Positions 4,087 through 37,515 of a stretch of DNA of 38,241 nucleotides are shown here, piece after piece. The stretch comes from Rhodospirillaceae bacterium. Lineage in GTDB: Bacteria > Pseudomonadota > Alphaproteobacteria > Bin65. Position numbers and translations under genes: made by a program. A model generated the notes under the pieces. The model saw only the letters and a program-made list of their open reading frames with translations. It was not told the DNA's origin and ran no database searches. Location: NCBI GenBank assembly GCA_009840595.1, contig VXNK01000128.1, positions 1 to 38,241 of the forward strand, read 5' to 3'. Numbering within the stretch: position 1 is the stretch's first letter; each line of letters begins with the position of its first letter.

Positions 4087-4423
4087 GGCGTCACCGATCG
4101 GCCGGGCCCGGCGCGCCTGTGTCGCACGGGCCGATGCAGGGTGGGAGCGGCCTCTACGCCCTTTATCCGGCGTTGAAAAGCGAAAAAATGCAGGCCGAAA
4201 TCACAGCTTCGTGTACGGCTGCGGACGGGTTCCGAAACCGGTCGAACCGGCCGGGTCCGGCGGTCGCCCCAGCACTATGGAATCCGCTGTGGAATCCGCC
4301 GTGGAATCCGCTTGCCGCCCCTGCCCTGCACGCTAAGTTTGGCGCACCGTGCCGGGCACGGCATTACCGCTGCCGCACCGGAGCGCGTGCGGCGTGCAGG
4401 CAACCCAACAGGCAAGAACAGCG
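4087..4423. other. divergent intergenic region, 337 bp
   Basis: Separates the MetF-like gene (minus) from the molybdopterin gene (plus) and must hold both promoters. Apart from the 12-bp tandem repeat at 4277-4312, I see no convincing -35/-10 pair, operator or riboswitch, and no small gene. Confidence 0.5.
4277..4312 (+). repeat. three tandem 12-bp repeats (consensus GTGGAATCCGCT)
   Basis: Three adjacent copies, differing by one base each: 4277-4288, 4289-4300 and 4301-4312. They lie 112 bp upstream of the molybdopterin gene start. They may be a slippage-prone minisatellite or closely phased protein-binding sites. Confidence 0.85.
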
Positions 4424-6733
4424 ATGACGAAATTCGGAGTGGGCCAGGCGGCGGCCCGAATCGAGGACAGGGTGCTGGTGACCGGGGCCGGCGCCTATAC
4501 CGACGATACCTCGATCGACGGCCAGGCCTGGGCCTGTGTTCTGCGCTCGCCCCACGCCCACGCCCGCATTCTCGGCATCGACAGCGCGGACGCCGCCGCC
4601 TCGCCCGGCGTGGTCGGAATCCTGACCGGAGCGGACATGGCCGCCGACGGCCTCGGCGACCTGCCCTGCCTGGTCCCGCTCGAAAACCGGGACGGCTCGG
4701 AGCGCCACGACTCGCCGCACGGCATCCTCGCCGGCGACCGGGTGCGCTATGTCGGCCATCCGGTGGCGCTGGTCGTGGCCGAGACCCTGGCCCAGGCGCG
4801 CGACGCCGCCGAGCGGATCGCGGTCGAGTATGAGGAACTGCCGGTCACCGTCCACACGGAGCATTCGGCGGCGGACGGCGCCCCCCTGCTCTACGACCAC
4901 ATCCCCAACAATCTGATCTACGACTGGCACAAGGGCGACGAGGCCGGCGTCGAGGCGGCGCTGGCCCGGGCGCACCATGTCTGCGAGCTCCGGCTGGTCA
5001 ACAACCGGGTGGTCGCCAACCCGATGGAGCCGCGCAGCGCGCTCGCCGTGCATGACGCCGCGACGGGACGCACGACGCTCGCGGCCTCGACCCAGGGGCC
5101 GAGCCTGATCCGCGACATCCTCGCCGAGCCGGTTTTCGGCATCGATCCGTCGAAGCTGCGCGTCACCACCGGCCATGTCGGCGGCGGATTCGGCATGAAG
5201 GTCTTTCCGCACGCGGAGCAGGCGCTGGTGATCTGGGCGGCGCGCCGGCTCGGGCGGCCGGTCAAGTGGACCTCCGAGCGGTCCGAAGGCTTCCTTTCCG
5301 ACGTCCAGGCGCGGGACAACATCACCTACTGCAAGCTGGGCCTGGACCGGGACGGCCGCATCCTCGCCCTGCGCGCCGACACCTTCGCCAACGAGGGCGC
5401 CTACCTGTCGACCTTCGCCCCGCTGGTCGCCTGTTTCGGCATGGACATGCTGGCCGGGCTCTACGACATCCCGGTCATCTACACGACGGTGAAGGGCGTG
5501 CTGACCAATACGGTGCCGGTCGACGCCTATCGCGGCGCCGGGCGGCCGGAGGCCGCCTATATCGTCGAGCGGGTCATCGACAAGGCGGCGCTGGAAACCG
5601 GCCGGTCGCCCGACGAAATCCGCCGGATCAATTTCATCCGGCCGGACCGGATGCCCTACGCCACCTGCCTGGGCGACACCTACGACAGCGGCGAATTCGA
5701 GGCGCTGATGGACGCGGCGATGGCGCAGGCCGACTGGGCCGGTTTCGAGGCGCGCCGGGCCGAGTCGCTGCGGCGCGGCAAGTATCGCGGCATCGGCCTC
5801 GCCACCTATATCGAGCGCTGCGGCGGCGGCCCGCCCGAGGTCGCCGCCGGCAGTTTCGGCGACGACGGGATTCTTACCGTCGCCATCGGGACGATGGACA
5901 ACGGCCAGGGCCACAAGACGTCCTACGGCCAGATCCTGTCCGGCGAGCTGGGCATCGATATGGAGAATATCCGGATATTCCAGGGCGATTCCGACCGCGC
6001 CCCGCCCGGCATGACCGGCGGTTCGCGCTCCGTCCCGGTCGGCGGGTCGGCGATGCTCGGGCTGGCCGCGGCCATCATCGACAAGGGACGGCGGACCGCC
6101 GCCGACATGCTGGAAGCCGCCGCCGGGGATGTGGAATATGGCGACGGCGCCTACCGGGTCGCCGGCACCGACCGGGAGGTGGCCCTGTTCGATGTCGCCC
6201 GCCGGGCGAAGGAAAACGGCGAACCGCTGGACGACTCCTTCGAACGCACGCCCGAGGCCGACACATTTCCGAACGGCGCCCATGTCGTCGAACTGGAGGT
6301 CGACGCCGAAACGGCCGAGATCGAGATCCTGCGCTACACGGTGGTCGACGATTTCGGCGCCGTCATCAACCCGCTGCTGATCGAGGGCCAGGTCCATGGC
6401 GGGATCGTCCAGGGGCTGGGGCAGGCCCTGCACGAGTTCACCTGGTACGACCCGGCGAGCGGCCAGCTCGAGACCGGCTCCTTCATGGACTACAACATGC
6501 CGAAGGCGGACTATTTCCCGTTCTTCAGCTTCGCCACCCGCAACGTGCGCTGCACGACCAACCCGCTCGGCATCAAGGGCGCGGGCGAGGCCGGCGCGAT
6601 CGGCGCACCGCCCGCCGCGATCAACGCCCTGGTCGATGCCCTGCGCCCGGTAACCGGAATCGACCATATCGACATGCCGGCGACGCCGCAGGCGGTTTTC
6701 CGGCTGCTGAACGGCGCGCGCAAGGCGGCCTAG
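4424..6733 (+). CDS. xanthine dehydrogenase-family molybdopterin-binding (large) subunit
   Basis: Large catalytic subunit of a molybdenum hydroxylase (aldehyde oxidase/xanthine dehydrogenase/CoxL superfamily), binding Mo-pterin cytosine dinucleotide. The 769-aa product has the usual length. Motifs seen: 'GHVGGGFGMK' near residue 250, 'AYRGAGRPEAAY' near 368 in the place of the CO-dehydrogenase active-site loop, and 'GAGEAGAIGAP' whose Glu (about 722) is the catalytic base of the superfamily. The AYxCSFR loop of true form-I CO dehydrogenase is absent, so this is a form-II-like enzyme or another aldehyde or N-heterocycle hydroxylase. The FAD (CoxM) and 2Fe-2S (CoxS) subunits that normally sit beside it are missing here. 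The ATG at 4424 gives the standard N-terminus; the longer frame adds non-conserved sequence. Confidence 0.88.
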   Translation: MTKFGVGQAAARIEDRVLVTGAGAYTDDTSIDGQAWACVLRSPHAHARILGIDSADAAASPGVVGILTGADMAADGLGDLPCLVPLENRDGSERHDSPHGILAGDRVRYVGHPVALVVAETLAQARDAAERIAVEYEELPVTVHTEHSAADGAPLLYDHIPNNLIYDWHKGDEAGVEAALARAHHVCELRLVNNRVVANPMEPRSALAVHDAATGRTTLAASTQGPSLIRDILAEPVFGIDPSKLRVTTGHVGGGFGMKVFPHAEQALVIWAARRLGRPVKWTSERSEGFLSDVQARDNITYCKLGLDRDGRILALRADTFANEGAYLSTFAPLVACFGMDMLAGLYDIPVIYTTVKGVLTNTVPVDAYRGAGRPEAAYIVERVIDKAALETGRSPDEIRRINFIRPDRMPYATCLGDTYDSGEFEALMDAAMAQADWAGFEARRAESLRRGKYRGIGLATYIERCGGGPPEVAAGSFGDDGILTVAIGTMDNGQGHKTSYGQILSGELGIDMENIRIFQGDSDRAPPGMTGGSRSVPVGGSAMLGLAAAIIDKGRRTAADMLEAAAGDVEYGDGAYRVAGTDREVALFDVARRAKENGEPLDDSFERTPEADTFPNGAHVVELEVDAETAEIEILRYTVVDDFGAVINPLLIEGQVHGGIVQGLGQALHEFTWYDPASGQLETGSFMDYNMPKADYFPFFSFATRNVRCTTNPLGIKGAGEAGAIGAPPAAINALVDALRPVTGIDHIDMPATPQAVFRLLNGARKAA

Positions 6734-9293: not shown

Positions 9294-10316
9294 GTGCCAC
9301 AGGACAGCGACAGAACACTCCCGAACAGGGTGCCGACGAACGGACAGCTCCTCTCGATGTTCGAGCGGATGCTGACGATCCGGCGGTTCGAAGAACGGCT
9401 GGGCGAGGACTTTCATGCCGGAAAGCTGCCCGGCGGTGTGCATCTCTATATCGGCCAGGAGGCGGTCGCCGTCGGGGTGTGCGCCCATCTGGACGACCGC
9501 GACCGCATCACCAGTACGCACCGCGGCCACGGGCACTTCATTGCCAAGGGCGGCGATCCCAAACCCATGGTTGCCGAGATCTACGGCAAGCGCGACGGCA
9601 TCTGCGGCGGCATGGGCGGTTCGATGCACGTCGCCGACGTTTCCAAGGGCATACTCGGCGCGAACGGTATCGTCGCGGGCGGCATTCCGATTGCCGCCGG
9701 TGCGGCGCTCGCGGCTCAGCTCGACGGCAACGGGCGCGTCGTCGTCTGCTTCTTCGGCGACGGAGCGGCCAATGAAGGCGTCCTGATGGAGAGCATGAAC
9801 ATCGCCGCGCTGTGGCAATTGCCGCTCATTTTCGTCTGCGAGCACAACGGCTTCTCGGAATTCTCGCCCTCCGACACCGTGACGGCCGGCGAAATCCGGG
9901 AGCGCGCCCGCCCGTTCGGAATGCCGGCCGAGTTGGTCGACGGCAACGACCTCGTCGCGGTCTGGCGCGCCGCCGACACGGCCGTCGACCGTGCCCGCAC
10001 CGGGCAGGGCCCCTCCTTCATCGAGGCCGCGACCTATCGCATCCGCGGGCATCTCGAAGCGGAGGCTCACTTCCTCAGCCGGTCCTACCGGTCCGAGGAG
10101 GAGGTCGAGCGATGGCGCCGCAACGATCCGATCGATCGATTGTCCGGGCACCTTCTGTCTTCGGAAATCTGCTCGGAGGCCGAAATTTCCGCGATCGAAG
10201 CGAAGATCGGGGAGGCAGTGGAAGAGGCGGCGGCGTTCGCGGAAGCCTCGGACCTGCCGGACGCCGACCGGGCGCCGGCGCTGATGTTCGCCGGCGGTCC
10301 CGCGGAAGCGGCGTGA
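9294..10316 (+). CDS. 2-oxoacid/acetoin dehydrogenase E1 component, alpha subunit
   Basis: Thiamine-diphosphate-binding half of an E1 heterotetramer. The 340-aa product shows the ThDP motif 'GDGAANEGVLMESMNIAALWQLPL' (GDG at 155-157) and the early 'IRRFEERL' and 'THRGHGHFIAKGGD' segments of PDH and acetoin dehydrogenase E1 alpha. It starts at GTG 9294 behind a CGGAG ribosome site; an ATG at 9357 would remove conserved sequence. The beta-subunit gene starts one base into its stop (TGATG), so the two are co-translated. The absence of an E2 acyltransferase and an E3 gene nearby is notable. The acid substrate is unknown; acetoin, pyruvate and branched oxoacids are all possible by family. Confidence 0.9.
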   Translation: MPQDSDRTLPNRVPTNGQLLSMFERMLTIRRFEERLGEDFHAGKLPGGVHLYIGQEAVAVGVCAHLDDRDRITSTHRGHGHFIAKGGDPKPMVAEIYGKRDGICGGMGGSMHVADVSKGILGANGIVAGGIPIAAGAALAAQLDGNGRVVVCFFGDGAANEGVLMESMNIAALWQLPLIFVCEHNGFSEFSPSDTVTAGEIRERARPFGMPAELVDGNDLVAVWRAADTAVDRARTGQGPSFIEAATYRIRGHLEAEAHFLSRSYRSEEEVERWRRNDPIDRLSGHLLSSEICSEAEISAIEAKIGEAVEEAAAFAEASDLPDADRAPALMFAGGPAEAA

Positions 10317-33422: not shown

Positions 33423-34616
33423 ATGACCCAGCCCATCACCCGGTCCGCAAGCCGCAGGGCGCCGTATGACGGCATTGTCGTCACGACGCCGGTCTCGATC
33501 CCCTATGTCCGCTTCTCGACCCGGGGCGCCCATTGGTGGATCGGGCGCGCCCTGGCCGCGCTGGTCCGCGACTCCGGCCTCTCCAAGGACCGGTTCGACG
33601 GCGTGTGCGCCACCAGCATGTCGCTGGCGCCGGATACCGCCGTCGGCATCGTCCAGCATCACGGGCTGACGCCGCGCTGGCTCGACTTCATCCCGATGGG
33701 CGGCGTCACCGGGGTCGTCGCGATGCGCCGGGCGGCGCGCGCGGTCCAGGCCGGCGACGCCGATATCGTCGCCTGCGTCGCCGGCGACACCAACCATATC
33801 GACAGCTTCCGCCAGGGCCTGGAGAACTTCAGCCAGTTCGGCAAGGACGCCGTCTATCCCGTTGGAACGGGAGGGCCGAACGCCAGCTTCGCCTTCCTCA
33901 CCGACTACTACATGCGGACCTACGGCGCCCGGCGCGAGGATTTCGGCAAGATGTGCGTCGCCCAGCGCGAAAACGCCCTCGCCTATCCCCACGCCCTGTT
34001 CAAGGCGCCGCTCACCCTGGAGCAATACATGACCGCCCGGCCGATCGCCGAGCCGGTGCATCTGTTCGACTGCGTCATGCCCTGCGCCGGCGCCGAAGCC
34101 TACCTCGTCATGCGCGAGGACGAGGCGCGCGGCCTCGGCTTGAGCTTCGGGCGGATTCTCGGCACCATCGAGCGGCACAACGCCTTCCCGGACGATCCGG
34201 TGCAGTATCGCGGCGGCTGGGCGATGGACGGCGGCGAGCTCTACGGCATGGCCGGCGTGAGCCCGGACGACATCGACTTCTTCGAGACCTACGACGACTA
34301 TCCCGTGATCAACATGCTGCAGTTCGAGGATCTGGGCTTCTGCGCCAAGGGCGAGGCGCCGGACTTCGTGCGCAGCCACACTATGACGACCGGCGGCAGC
34401 TTCCCGATCAACACGTCCGGCGGGCAGCTTTCCGTCGGGCAGGCCGGCGGCGCGGGCGGCTTTCTCGGCACGGTCGAGGCGATCCGGCAGGTCACCGGGC
34501 AGGCGCTCGGCAGGCCGGTCCCGGACGCGAAGATCGGCCTGGTCGGCGGCTTCGGCATGATCAGCTATGACCGCGGCGTCTGTTCCGCGGCGGCGATCCT
34601 GGCGGCGGGAGACTGA
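33423..34616 (+). CDS. thiolase-like protein (lipid-transfer/SCP2-thiolase type), likely non-classical
   Basis: A 397-aa thiolase-fold protein of the type annotated as acetyl-CoA acetyltransferase or lipid-transfer thiolase. The fold is recognisable from 'LVRDSGLSKDRFDGVCATS', 'VQAGDADIVACVAGDTN' and the C-terminal 'FPINTSGGQLSVGQAGGAGGFLGTVEAIRQVTGQA'. However, the nucleophilic Cys loop is replaced by 'DFIPMGGVTGVVAMRRA', and the GHP of the C-terminal motif is GQA, so it lacks two of the usual thiolase catalytic residues. Such proteins often work as a complex with a DUF35 protein, and a DUF35 domain is encoded by the next gene, four bases downstream. A role as aldolase or scaffold, as in steroid side-chain cleavage complexes, is possible. 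Confidence 0.82.
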   Translation: MTQPITRSASRRAPYDGIVVTTPVSIPYVRFSTRGAHWWIGRALAALVRDSGLSKDRFDGVCATSMSLAPDTAVGIVQHHGLTPRWLDFIPMGGVTGVVAMRRAARAVQAGDADIVACVAGDTNHIDSFRQGLENFSQFGKDAVYPVGTGGPNASFAFLTDYYMRTYGARREDFGKMCVAQRENALAYPHALFKAPLTLEQYMTARPIAEPVHLFDCVMPCAGAEAYLVMREDEARGLGLSFGRILGTIERHNAFPDDPVQYRGGWAMDGGELYGMAGVSPDDIDFFETYDDYPVINMLQFEDLGFCAKGEAPDFVRSHTMTTGGSFPINTSGGQLSVGQAGGAGGFLGTVEAIRQVTGQALGRPVPDAKIGLVGGFGMISYDRGVCSAAAILAAGD

Positions 34617-34620
34617 GTCC

Positions 34621-35886
34621 GTGGCCGCCCCGCTCAAGAAACCGAAGCGCAAGAACCCGGTCCTGCGCACACGGGCGCCGATGCTGCCGCCGGCGCCGCG
34701 CAGCCGGATTTCGCTCGGCCTGACCTCGGGCGCGGCGCGCGGCGTCTTCGAACTCCAGGTCTGCCGGGACTGCGGCGCCGTCCAGTATCCGCCGCGCGAG
34801 GCCTGCAAGGAGTGCCTCTCCGACCGGCTGGACTGGACGCCCCACAGCGGCCGCGGCGAACTGGTGGCGCACACCACCCTGCGCCACGCCATGGAGAACT
34901 ATTTCCGCGAGCGCCTGCCCTGGCGGCTCGGCATCGTGAAGCTGGACAATGACGGGCCCCATGAAGCGCCCAGCCTGATCGTCCACGTCCACGGCGATTG
35001 CGCCGAACCGCCGGCCCGGGTCCGCATCCGCGCCATGCTGGACCGGTCCGGACAGGCGGTGCTGCTGGCCCTGCCGGAAAAGGATACGCCCCATATGAGC
35101 GACGATCCCCAGATGCGCGAACTGACCTGCGATCCCAAATTCCGCAAGGTCTTCGTGACCGACGGCAAGGGCCCGGTCGGCCAGGCGGTCGTGAAGGCCA
35201 TGATCGCGGCCGGGTCCGACCTGGTCTGGGTCGGCGAGGCCGCGCCGTGGAAGAAGATCCCCGGTTTCGAGGAGATCGCGGCGCTGCCGGAGGTCACGAT
35301 GGTCGACCTGGACGTGACCAACCCGGATTCGGTCAAGCGCTGCGCCGGGCAGATCGGCCCCAAGGTCGATATCCTGGTCAACACGGCCGAGCAGCACCGG
35401 GCCTACACGGTCGGCGGGCGCTACGGCACGGAGAACGCCCGCGCCGAAATGGAAATCAACTATTTCGGCCTGCTTCGCCTCGCCCAGGAGTTCGGCCCGG
35501 TAATGATGTCCCGCGGCGCCGATACCGAGACCAATGCGGTGGCGTGGGTCAATATCCTGTCGATCTTCGCGCTCGCCAACAAGCCGGACCAGAGCACCTT
35601 CTCGGCGTCCAAGGCGGCCGCCCATTCGCTCGCCCAGGCGATGCGCGCGGGCATGCACCGGTCCGGCGTGCGGGTGATCAACCTGTATCCGGGGCCGCTC
35701 GACGTCGAATGGAACCAGGAATTGCGCCCGCCCAAGGTGACGCCGGCGGCGCTCGCCCGCGCTATCGTCGGCGCCTTGCAGGGCGGCGCGGAGGACGTTT
35801 ATCCCGGCGACGTCGCCAAGGACTGGTACGAACGCTGGCGCCGCGATCCGAAGGTGCTGGAACGGGAGCTGGCCCATGGCGAATAG
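34621..35886 (+). CDS. DUF35 (Zn-ribbon/OB-fold)-SDR fusion protein
   Basis: A 421-aa two-domain protein. Residues ~40-155 form a DUF35 acyl-CoA-associated domain: a zinc ribbon with C48-x2-C51 and C62-x2-C65 in 'CRDCGAVQYPPREACKEC', then an OB fold ending 'RVRIRAMLDRSG'. Residues ~170-415 are a short-chain dehydrogenase fold ('RKVFVTDGKGPVGQAVVKAMIAAG', 'VDILVNTAEQ', 'STFSASKAAAHSLAQAM', 'VINLYPGPLDVEW'). The SDR active site is degraded: TG-x3-G-x-G is TDGKGPVG, NNAG is NTAE and the catalytic Y-x3-K is F327-x3-K331. It starts at GTG 34621, four bases after the thiolase-like stop, so the two are co-translated and probably form one complex. Confidence 0.82.
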   Translation: MAAPLKKPKRKNPVLRTRAPMLPPAPRSRISLGLTSGAARGVFELQVCRDCGAVQYPPREACKECLSDRLDWTPHSGRGELVAHTTLRHAMENYFRERLPWRLGIVKLDNDGPHEAPSLIVHVHGDCAEPPARVRIRAMLDRSGQAVLLALPEKDTPHMSDDPQMRELTCDPKFRKVFVTDGKGPVGQAVVKAMIAAGSDLVWVGEAAPWKKIPGFEEIAALPEVTMVDLDVTNPDSVKRCAGQIGPKVDILVNTAEQHRAYTVGGRYGTENARAEMEINYFGLLRLAQEFGPVMMSRGADTETNAVAWVNILSIFALANKPDQSTFSASKAAAHSLAQAMRAGMHRSGVRVINLYPGPLDVEWNQELRPPKVTPAALARAIVGALQGGAEDVYPGDVAKDWYERWRRDPKVLERELAHGE

Positions 35887-35911
35887 CCCTTCGATACGCC
35901 GCCCGACCGGC

Positions 35912-35949
35912 CAGTCCCCGAATTGACAGTCCCCGAATTGACAGTCCGG
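35912..35949 (+). repeat. 15-bp tandem repeat, 2.5 copies
   Basis: CAGTCCCCGAATTGA at 35912-35926 and 35927-35941, with a partial third copy to 35949. It sits in the 149-bp gap before the VOC gene; the gap holds no gene. Confidence 0.85.
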
Positions 35950-36035
35950 CATCCGCCGAAATAGAACGACTCCGGTTCGCGCTCCGCCGCGGCGCCCCGG
36001 TCGGGCAACGGCCAGGTCCGAATTGGGAGGCTTCC

Positions 36036-36638
36036 ATGAGTTCGAGACCGTCGATCCGCCTGAACCATGCCGGGTTCCACGTCTTCGACATCGAGCGGAT
36101 GGTGGACTTCTTCACCAGCGTTTACGGCCTTCATGTCACCGATCGCGGCATTGCCGGGGAGACGGGCGAGATCGTCTTTCTCTGCGCCGACCCGAGGGAC
36201 CACCACCAGCTGGTGCTCTACGAAGGACGGACGTCGAGGGAGGGCGTTCACTACAATCACATGTCCTTCGAGGTGAACGACCTCGACCGGCTCAGGAAGA
36301 TCTACCGCGCGCTTCAGGACTATCCCGGCGTCACCGGCATCCACACCATGAACCACGGGGTCTCCTGGGCCGTCTATTGCCACGACCCGGAGGGCAACCG
36401 CACCGAAGCCTTCGTCGATACGCCCTGGTACGTCAACCAGCCCTACTACGCCGACAACCTGGACCTCTCCCGGAGCGACGAGGAAATCGCCGAGATCACC
36501 AGACGGATGCTCGAAGCCGAGCCGACGGCGGAACCGGTCGAGCGCTGGCGCGCCCGCTTTGCCGAAAAGCTGGGGCTCGACCCGGCGCTCGACCCGGCGC
36601 GGGGGCCTTCGGCACAGGGCAGGCCCGCGCCGCGGTAG
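36036..36638 (+). CDS. VOC-family extradiol-dioxygenase-like protein
   Basis: A 200-aa vicinal-oxygen-chelate protein with the 2-His-1-carboxylate arrangement of type-I extradiol (catechol) dioxygenases: H11 in 'RLNHAGFHVFD', H75 in 'HYNHMSFEVND' and E124 in 'DPEGNRTEAFVDTPWYV'. The 'CHDPEGNRTE' segment is especially like biphenyl- and catechol-cleaving enzymes. The C-terminal tail has a duplicated LDPA motif and is low-complexity. ATG 36036 has a GGGAGG ribosome site. It is followed by a cyclase-family hydrolase, so ring opening then hydrolysis is a possible sequence of steps, but a glyoxalase-like isomerase cannot be excluded. Confidence 0.83.
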   Translation: MSSRPSIRLNHAGFHVFDIERMVDFFTSVYGLHVTDRGIAGETGEIVFLCADPRDHHQLVLYEGRTSREGVHYNHMSFEVNDLDRLRKIYRALQDYPGVTGIHTMNHGVSWAVYCHDPEGNRTEAFVDTPWYVNQPYYADNLDLSRSDEEIAEITRRMLEAEPTAEPVERWRARFAEKLGLDPALDPARGPSAQGRPAPR

Positions 36639-36729
36639 GCAAGGCGGAAACCCGGGCTTTGCCGCCTTCGGCCGGGGGCATCGAGCAGCGCCCGATCGAC
36701 AGGAAGCCGTCTGGAACGAAGGAATCGCC

Positions 36730-37515
36730 ATGACCGCCAACCCGCTTCTGGACATGGTCCGCGGCATCGCCGAACGGCAGATCCGCGTGATCGACCTGAC
36801 CCAGACCCTGACGCCGGATTTTCCGCAGATCGAACTGCCGCCGGAAATGGGCCAGTGCTGGCCGTTCCGGCTCGAGGAGGTGTCGCGCTACGACGACCGC
36901 GGGCTCGCCGCCTACTGGAACAATTTTTCGTGCGGCGAGCATACCGGCACCCATTTCGACGCGCCGATCCACTGGGTCTCCGGCCGCAACCTGCCCAACA
37001 ACAGCACCGATACCGTGCCGGTCGAGAACATGGTCGCGCCGGCCTGCGTCGTGGACTGCGTGAAGCATGTCGAGCAGAACGCCGACTACCTGCTCAGCGC
37101 CGATTTCCTGCGCAACTGGGAGGAAGAGCACGGCAAGATCCCGCCGCGCTCCTGGGTCCTGATGCGGACCGACTGGTCGAAACGGCCGGACCCGGAATCC
37201 TACCAGAATTTCGACGATGAAGGGCAGCACACGCCGGGGCCGGATACCGACGCCGTGCGCTTCCTGGTCGAGGAGCGCGACGTCATGGGCTTCGGCAGCG
37301 AGTGCATCGGCACCGACGCCGGCCAGGCCATGCATCTGCGCCCGCCCTACCCATGCCACTACTATATCCACGGCGCCGGCCGCTACGGGCTGCAATGCCT
37401 GACCAACCTCGACCTGCTGCCGCCGACCGGCAGCGTGCTCTTCACCGCCCCGCTCAAGATCAAGCAGGGCAGCGGCTCGCCCCTGCGCGTCCTGGCGCTG
37501 GTGTGGGAGGGGTAG
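36730..37515 (+). CDS. cyclase-family protein (kynurenine formamidase-like)
   Basis: A 261-aa hydrolase of the cyclase fold with the canonical metal motif 'HTGTHFDAPIHW' (H71, H75, D77, H81). Supporting stretches are 'IRVIDLTQTLTPDFPQIELPPE' and 'MGFGSECIGTDAGQAM', which are typical of kynurenine formamidase and isatin hydrolase relatives. It is shorter than and distinct from the paralogue at 8140, whose motif is altered. ATG 36730 follows AAGGA. It probably hydrolyses an amide or lactone in the same pathway as the VOC enzyme 91 bp upstream. Confidence 0.87.
   Translation: MTANPLLDMVRGIAERQIRVIDLTQTLTPDFPQIELPPEMGQCWPFRLEEVSRYDDRGLAAYWNNFSCGEHTGTHFDAPIHWVSGRNLPNNSTDTVPVENMVAPACVVDCVKHVEQNADYLLSADFLRNWEEEHGKIPPRSWVLMRTDWSKRPDPESYQNFDDEGQHTPGPDTDAVRFLVEERDVMGFGSECIGTDAGQAMHLRPPYPCHYYIHGAGRYGLQCLTNLDLLPPTGSVLFTAPLKIKQGSGSPLRVLALVWEG

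Follow-up and report, generated by a model that had tools for sequence, protein, structure and literature searches.

A thiolase-fold protein and its DUF35–SDR fusion partner as the probable aldolase pair IadG–IadH of the aerobic iad pathway

Two adjacent genes in the stretch of Rhodospirillaceae DNA analysed here (38,241 nt, hereafter referred to as the window) probably encode IadG and IadH of the aerobic iad pathway of auxin (IAA) degradation, a pair that would remove the side chain of this plant hormone by retro-aldol cleavage of dioxindole-3-acetyl-CoA (DOAA-CoA) to isatin and acetyl-CoA, the SDR part of IadH being a pseudoenzyme; we assign this reading a probability of roughly 0.78. Our observations concern homology, residue losses, conservation, gene context and co-occurrence. 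The first gene (33423..34616, forward strand) is an ORF for an iadG-type thiolase-fold protein of 397 aa with a Pfam Thiolase_C_1 match, and the second (34621..35886, forward strand), starting with a GTG at 34621, four bases past the iadG stop, codes for an iadH-type fusion of 421 aa with Pfam matches to zf-ChsH2, OB_ChsH2_C and adh_short. In this fusion, residues 36–140 (34726..35040, forward strand) form the DUF35 part, composed of the zf-ChsH2 zinc ribbon with Cys48, 51, 62 and 65 and the OB_ChsH2_C domain, and residues 174–421 (35140..35883, forward strand) form the pseudo-SDR domain.

The closest solved relatives of IadG are the aldolases CtSal and Ltp2, with CtSal (9myr) as the top PDB match (E=6e-43). 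Active-site positions were mapped according to PMC12329534, by alignment of IadG with CtSal (9myr) and Ltp2 (6ok1). In CtSal, catalysis is carried out by Tyr302 and Cys304 of the YDCY motif, the nucleophile position of thiolases being occupied by Gly and the Cys being supported by Gln347 and Gln352; the C304A, C304S and C304H variants are inactive (PMC12329534). IadG has Gly at the nucleophile position (G93/G94) and Gln340 at the His position of the GHP motif, both of which were invariant among 26 aligned orthologues. The residue set of thiolases (EC 2.3.1.9/16), two Cys and two His, is missing in IadG, which has Gly at the nucleophile position, Tyr-Asp-Asp at that of HDCF and Gln at that of GHP. 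The YDDY motif (Tyr290-Asp-Asp292-Tyr) was present in all 26 orthologues and in 12/12 proteins of one further genus, with Y290 and Asp292 invariant in the aligned set, and both supporting Gln of the CtSal type are retained as Gln335 and Gln340. Neither the acid of Sal (Cys304) nor that of Ltp2 (Tyr344) was found in IadG. Asp292 and Gln340 stand in their places, invariant in the 26 aligned sequences, and because of these replacements the mechanism is not portable residue by residue from CtSal or Ltp2. The loss of the Cys is a family trait common to the Ltp2 and Sal aldolases, and no oddity of the window copy. As for Sal/Ltp2-type aldolases, a DUF35 partner (zf-ChsH2 and OB_ChsH2_C in IadH) is encoded beside IadG; in Sal and Ltp2, it is the DUF35 domain that links the aldolase to its partner (PMC11321319).

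In IadH, the SDR Tyr position is occupied by F327 (context STFSASK), K331 is kept, and the TGxxxGxG site reads T180-D-G-K-G-P-V-G187 (TDGKGPVG), with the first Gly replaced by Asp and the second by Pro. Across an alignment of 26 orthologous fusions, the SDR Tyr and Lys were never present together (0/26), and the first Gly of the motif was lost in every case (Asp in 21, Asn in 5). At position 327, F and Y occur in 8 sequences each, and the other 10 have H, T, A, V, P or S; at position 331, K was seen in 5 and Q in 9. The catalytic Asn is retained in 9 of the 26. Lineages keeping the Tyr lack the Lys instead, the catalytic losses differing from lineage to lineage; Ruegeria pomeroyi IadH carries Thr and Ala at the two positions. 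As a reference set, we used five stand-alone SDRs from the nearest family, in which the glycine motif and Lys were present in 5/5 and Tyr in 4/5. The DUF35–SDR fusions are monophyletic, forming one clade (support 99/99), and their four zinc-ribbon Cys are near-invariant in the family. Within the genus, dN/dS was 0.06–0.08 for the SDR part versus 0.17–0.29 for the DUF35 part. Because different lineages lost different catalytic residues, yet purifying selection is strong, the SDR part is, as judged from its sequence, a conserved pseudoenzyme domain, widespread and labelled as an oxidoreductase in databases. It is predicted to be unable to act as a classical SDR, and the usual alcohol dehydrogenase label of IadH is probably wrong.

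An earlier note on this DNA had described the altered thiolase nucleophile loop and GHP motif, the zinc-ribbon/OB–SDR fusion in the gene four bases on, and F327 together with the broken TGxxxGxG; all of these descriptions stand. Its treatment of Phe327 as the key feature does not, since the trait common to the family is an incomplete Tyr–Lys pair. Given the range of residues seen at position 327, a conserved functional role of Phe327 is ruled out, and the Phe itself is a lineage feature. The possibility of a lone decayed copy is ruled out by the 26 orthologous fusions with their common loss and low dN/dS, and no close homologue keeping both the Tyr and the glycine motif was found (0/26).

The SDR part of the 26 fusions also contains near-invariant, family-specific positions (N254, R260, G358-P359, W364, Q366 and P371), which, along with the strong purifying selection, would be in line with a domain that is still alive, either performing a different chemistry or binding NAD(P) in a non-canonical manner via these other conserved residues. 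We consider this highly improbable, however, as the first Gly and either Tyr or Lys are lost in every member, in a pattern that differs by lineage, as would be expected under relaxed catalytic constraint. The SDR part is missing from two relatives: in one genome (G202), iadD, E, F, G, I and J are accompanied by a DUF35-only IadH, and the genes of Novosphingobium resinovorum read IadF-IadG-DUF35. These two group together in the IadG tree (support 97/96), which gives the group no supported placement among the fused lineages; the SDR part may have been lost in them or never present. AlphaFold2 models of the two window proteins, built with six closely related sequences only, gave pLDDT values of 29 and 35. 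In Agrobacterium pusense (locus L066, 8995–10248), the SDR gene as deposited begins at 9370, so that the DUF35 part encoded upstream in frame is left out.

Orthologous pairs were found in three genomes of the genus besides the window's own and in five MAG loci (possibly overlapping sets), as well as in other alphaproteobacterial families and at least one genus outside the class. The pair is also present in 34 plasmid records, whose hosts include Roseibium, Sulfitobacter, Ruegeria, Azospirillum, Agrobacterium and Novosphingobium; in these, the first gene is annotated as 'thiolase' and the second mostly as 'SDR family NAD(P)-dependent oxidoreductase'. On one such plasmid, of Sulfitobacter sp. 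THAF37 (L075, 9529–11129), two additional genes lie near the iad operon, one thiolase-like and the other, after it, for a stand-alone OB-fold protein. In Roseibium, Ruegeria, Sulfitobacter and two further genomes (G581 and G636), the genes are arranged in the order ferredoxin reductase, Rieske alpha, Rieske beta, AMP-ligase, thiolase-like, DUF35-SDR, cyclase and SDR, matching the order iadC-D-E-F-G-H-I-J given for Variovorax paradoxus CL14 in PMC12633357 and PMC10374108; the identity with the CL14 proteins rests on gene order and annotation. The cyclase (PF04199) gene is next after the pair in most relatives, directly after iadH. Both R. pomeroyi DSS-3 and Roseibium (Labrenzia) aggregatum carry the iad operon, and all tested strains with the IAA-degradation locus, R. 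pomeroyi DSS-3 among them, degraded IAA (PMC9613470). Among 397 genomes (a sample of 398 with the window's own left out), IadG co-occurred with IadD (Fisher p=1.6e-9) and with IadI (p=1.2e-9), these p-values being optimistic owing to relatedness between the genomes. A putative Variovorax genus (g402) was positive in 23 of its 25 genomes, with an IadH match of ~62%. As a point against an iad role, the iadGHI clusters of two genomes (G531 and G649) were found with no close IadD. Taken together, gene order, downstream partner and co-occurrence indicate that the window pair is most likely IadG–IadH of the iad operon.

Of the iad order, only G, H and I stand together in the window. The iadI-type gene (36730..37515, forward strand; start at 36730 inferred) encodes a cyclase-family (PF04199) product that matches isatin hydrolase A (PDB 5nna, E=2.9e-106). 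Within the region 35888–36720, iadH and iadI are separated, in the window only, by a VOC/glyoxalase-family gene (36036..36638, forward strand), which is absent at that place in the genus relatives, where iadI follows shortly after iadH; a short direct repeat, gacagtccccgaatt, was detected upstream of this gene, which is probably no part of the iad system. In another genome (G633; L105, 6074–10605), an isatin hydrolase gene lies by indolepyruvate-ferredoxin-oxidoreductase-like genes with no iadGH, which suggests that isatin arises by another route there and that isatinate undergoes a thiamine-dependent step. On the 5′ side, a xanthine-dehydrogenase-type Mo-hydroxylase gene (4349–6733 in the window; 6699–9083 in L059; 5892–8201 in L060) stands directly upstream of iadG in the genus relatives. 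Its flank and that of iadG are only a few hundred bases apart in relatives L004–L008, L059 and L060, and are separated by ~26.5 kb (6909–33387) in the window, representing a large insertion, a rearrangement in the genome or a join in the MAG assembly. The Mo-hydroxylase might offer an alternative path from IAA to an oxindole acid.

Other Iad proteins are encoded elsewhere in the window genome (G000): contig C53 carries orthologues of IadD (65%), IadE (52%) and IadJ (58%), and contig C160 one of IadF (~50%). The arrangement in the genus relatives, in which iadGHI is preceded not by iadCDEF but by the Mo-hydroxylase gene and a Rieske gene only distantly related to IadD (23%), could be taken to mean that in this sponge-associated genus the pair, still as a retro-aldol or retro-Claisen enzyme, acts on another 3-substituted oxindole or an N-heteroaromatic acyl-CoA, and not on DOAA-CoA, fed by the neighbouring Mo-hydroxylase and Rieske enzymes. 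Such a substrate is unlikely, given that all four genus genomes keep an IadD orthologue (61–66%) with IadE and IadJ adjoining, together with IadF (~50%), and that the isatin hydrolase is retained next to the pair.

For DOAA-CoA as the substrate of IadG–IadH, we infer the following reaction, catalytic roles and complex. The ligase IadF is expected to yield DOAA-CoA, a β-hydroxyacyl-CoA with a tertiary alcohol. IadG, most likely complexed with IadH via the latter's DUF35 domain, by analogy with Sal and Ltp2, would cleave DOAA-CoA into a ketone, isatin, and acetyl-CoA, the reaction needing neither a nucleophilic Cys nor a redox step. The retained Tyr290 would serve as the base on the C3 hydroxyl, and Asp292 probably protonates the acetyl-CoA enolate. 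The isatin hydrolase IadI would then convert isatin to isatinate, on to anthranilate. The pseudo-SDR would be kept for structure, with a part in assembling the complex, in binding CoA or the substrate, or in docking. The mass balance agrees with this scheme (C10H9NO4 = isatin C8H5NO2 + C2H4O2). According to PMC12633357, C10H9NO4, the formula of DOAA, accumulates in the iadF, G, H and I deletions, and C8H7NO3 was detected in Variovorax; the latter is the formula of isatinate and fits the isatin route. More tentatively, and as a possibility to which we give limited weight, IadG may represent a third kind of thiolase-fold aldolase with a Tyr-Asp dyad (YDDY), with the pseudo-SDR repurposed for oxindole-CoA binding or for the handover of isatin to the isatin hydrolase, i.e. 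as a channelling scaffold. The earlier note had proposed either an aldolase or a non-redox acyl-CoA-binding complex with a structural SDR part; an aldolase-type pair with a non-redox SDR is indeed best supported, and the iad pathway substrate had been missed. Steroid side-chain breakdown is ruled out as the context, the partner gene being an isatin hydrolase and the operon carrying iad genes.

The published assignment is different. In the 2025 preprint PMC12633357, IadG and IadH are assigned by annotation as a ketothiolase and an alcohol dehydrogenase, and the side-chain removal is described as reductive, to C8H7NO2 (dioxindole mass), which accumulates, and not isatin, in the iadI deletion. 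A thiolase/acetyltransferase IadG acting with an NAD(P)H-dependent alcohol dehydrogenase IadH, so that the acetyl side chain is removed reductively to give dioxindole, would account for the C8H7NO2 reported both when iadI is deleted and when iadCDEFGH is expressed together with iadJ and K2 (PMC12633357), and agrees with the database labels of both genes. Nevertheless, the two assignments are contradicted by the residues, and we regard the reductive route as quite unlikely: all IadG orthologues lack the nucleophilic Cys and have Gln at the GHP His, no IadH among the 26 has the Tyr–Lys combination or the first Gly of the nucleotide motif, the IAA degrader R. pomeroyi has Thr and Ala at the Tyr and Lys positions, and G202 combines an iad set with a DUF35-only IadH. 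For retro-aldol cleavage to isatin, off-pathway reduction of isatin by other reductases of the cell in the absence of IadI must be assumed to explain the C8H7NO2 signal. No DUF35 or aldolase assignment for the CL14-type iadG and iadH appears in the available text of PMC12633357 and PMC10374108, and a search of largely open-access literature gave no match for a DUF35–SDR fusion with a thiolase. The molecular identity of the side-chain step seems to have gone unrecognised, the pathway itself being known.

The iad auxin-degradation operon is described from V. paradoxus CL14 and Bradyrhizobium (PMC9613470, PMC10374108 and PMC12633357). Its pathway enables Variovorax and Bradyrhizobium to counter the inhibition of root growth by auxin, and the 2025 preprint (PMC12633357) reports that it was transferred to further root bacteria with the aim of improving plant growth. 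Its side-chain removal step, iadF-G-H, has so far been assigned by annotation only. If our reading is true, the ketothiolase label of IadG would give way to that of an aldolase, IadH would be no dehydrogenase and no NAD(P)H would be needed, and the expected product would be isatin, in line with the adjoining isatin hydrolase. YDDY would represent a third active-site solution for aldolases of the thiolase fold, and the SDR part would join the known pseudoenzymes as a widespread and strongly conserved case that is labelled as an oxidoreductase in databases.

Compared with the iad operon, in which IadG and IadH of the relatives lie between the AMP-ligase IadF and the cyclase/isatin hydrolase IadI, the window genus splits the pathway over three places (iadDEJ, iadF and iadGHI). 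Isatin hydrolase A of Labrenzia aggregata (5nna/5nnb; PMC6117287) corresponds to the downstream partner IadI; it is outside the IadG–IadH pair, but defines the expected product. The nearest sequence relatives of the IadH SDR part are the PRK08264-like SDRs (NF006118; PDB 5u4s), which differ in being stand-alone, with an intact TGANRGIG and with Tyr and Lys mostly kept. One subgroup of these (L016, L022, L026, L027, L029 and PDB 5u4s) combines Leu at the catalytic Tyr position with a TGxxxGxG-type motif that is intact.

Among the aldolases, the steroid enzyme Ltp2–ChsH2 (6ok1) is likewise a thiolase-fold retro-aldolase with a DUF35 partner, producing a ketone from a tertiary β-hydroxyacyl-CoA, to which DOAA-CoA is similar in kind. 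The base Tyr294 of Ltp2 corresponds to Tyr290 of IadG, whereas its acid Tyr344 is replaced by Gln340, and its motif is YDHF instead of YDDY. The bile-acid aldolase CtSal–CtShy shares with IadG the thiolase fold, the Gly in place of the nucleophilic Cys, the Tyr of YDxY and the Gln pair of GGQ...GQ, and, as in IadH, its DUF35 partner is fused to a second domain. However, the catalytic Cys304 of CtSal is Asp292 in IadG, the second domain on its DUF35 partner is an active MaoC hydratase in contrast to the predicted inactive SDR of IadH, and its zinc ribbon is of the C3H1 type, as opposed to the four Cys of IadH.
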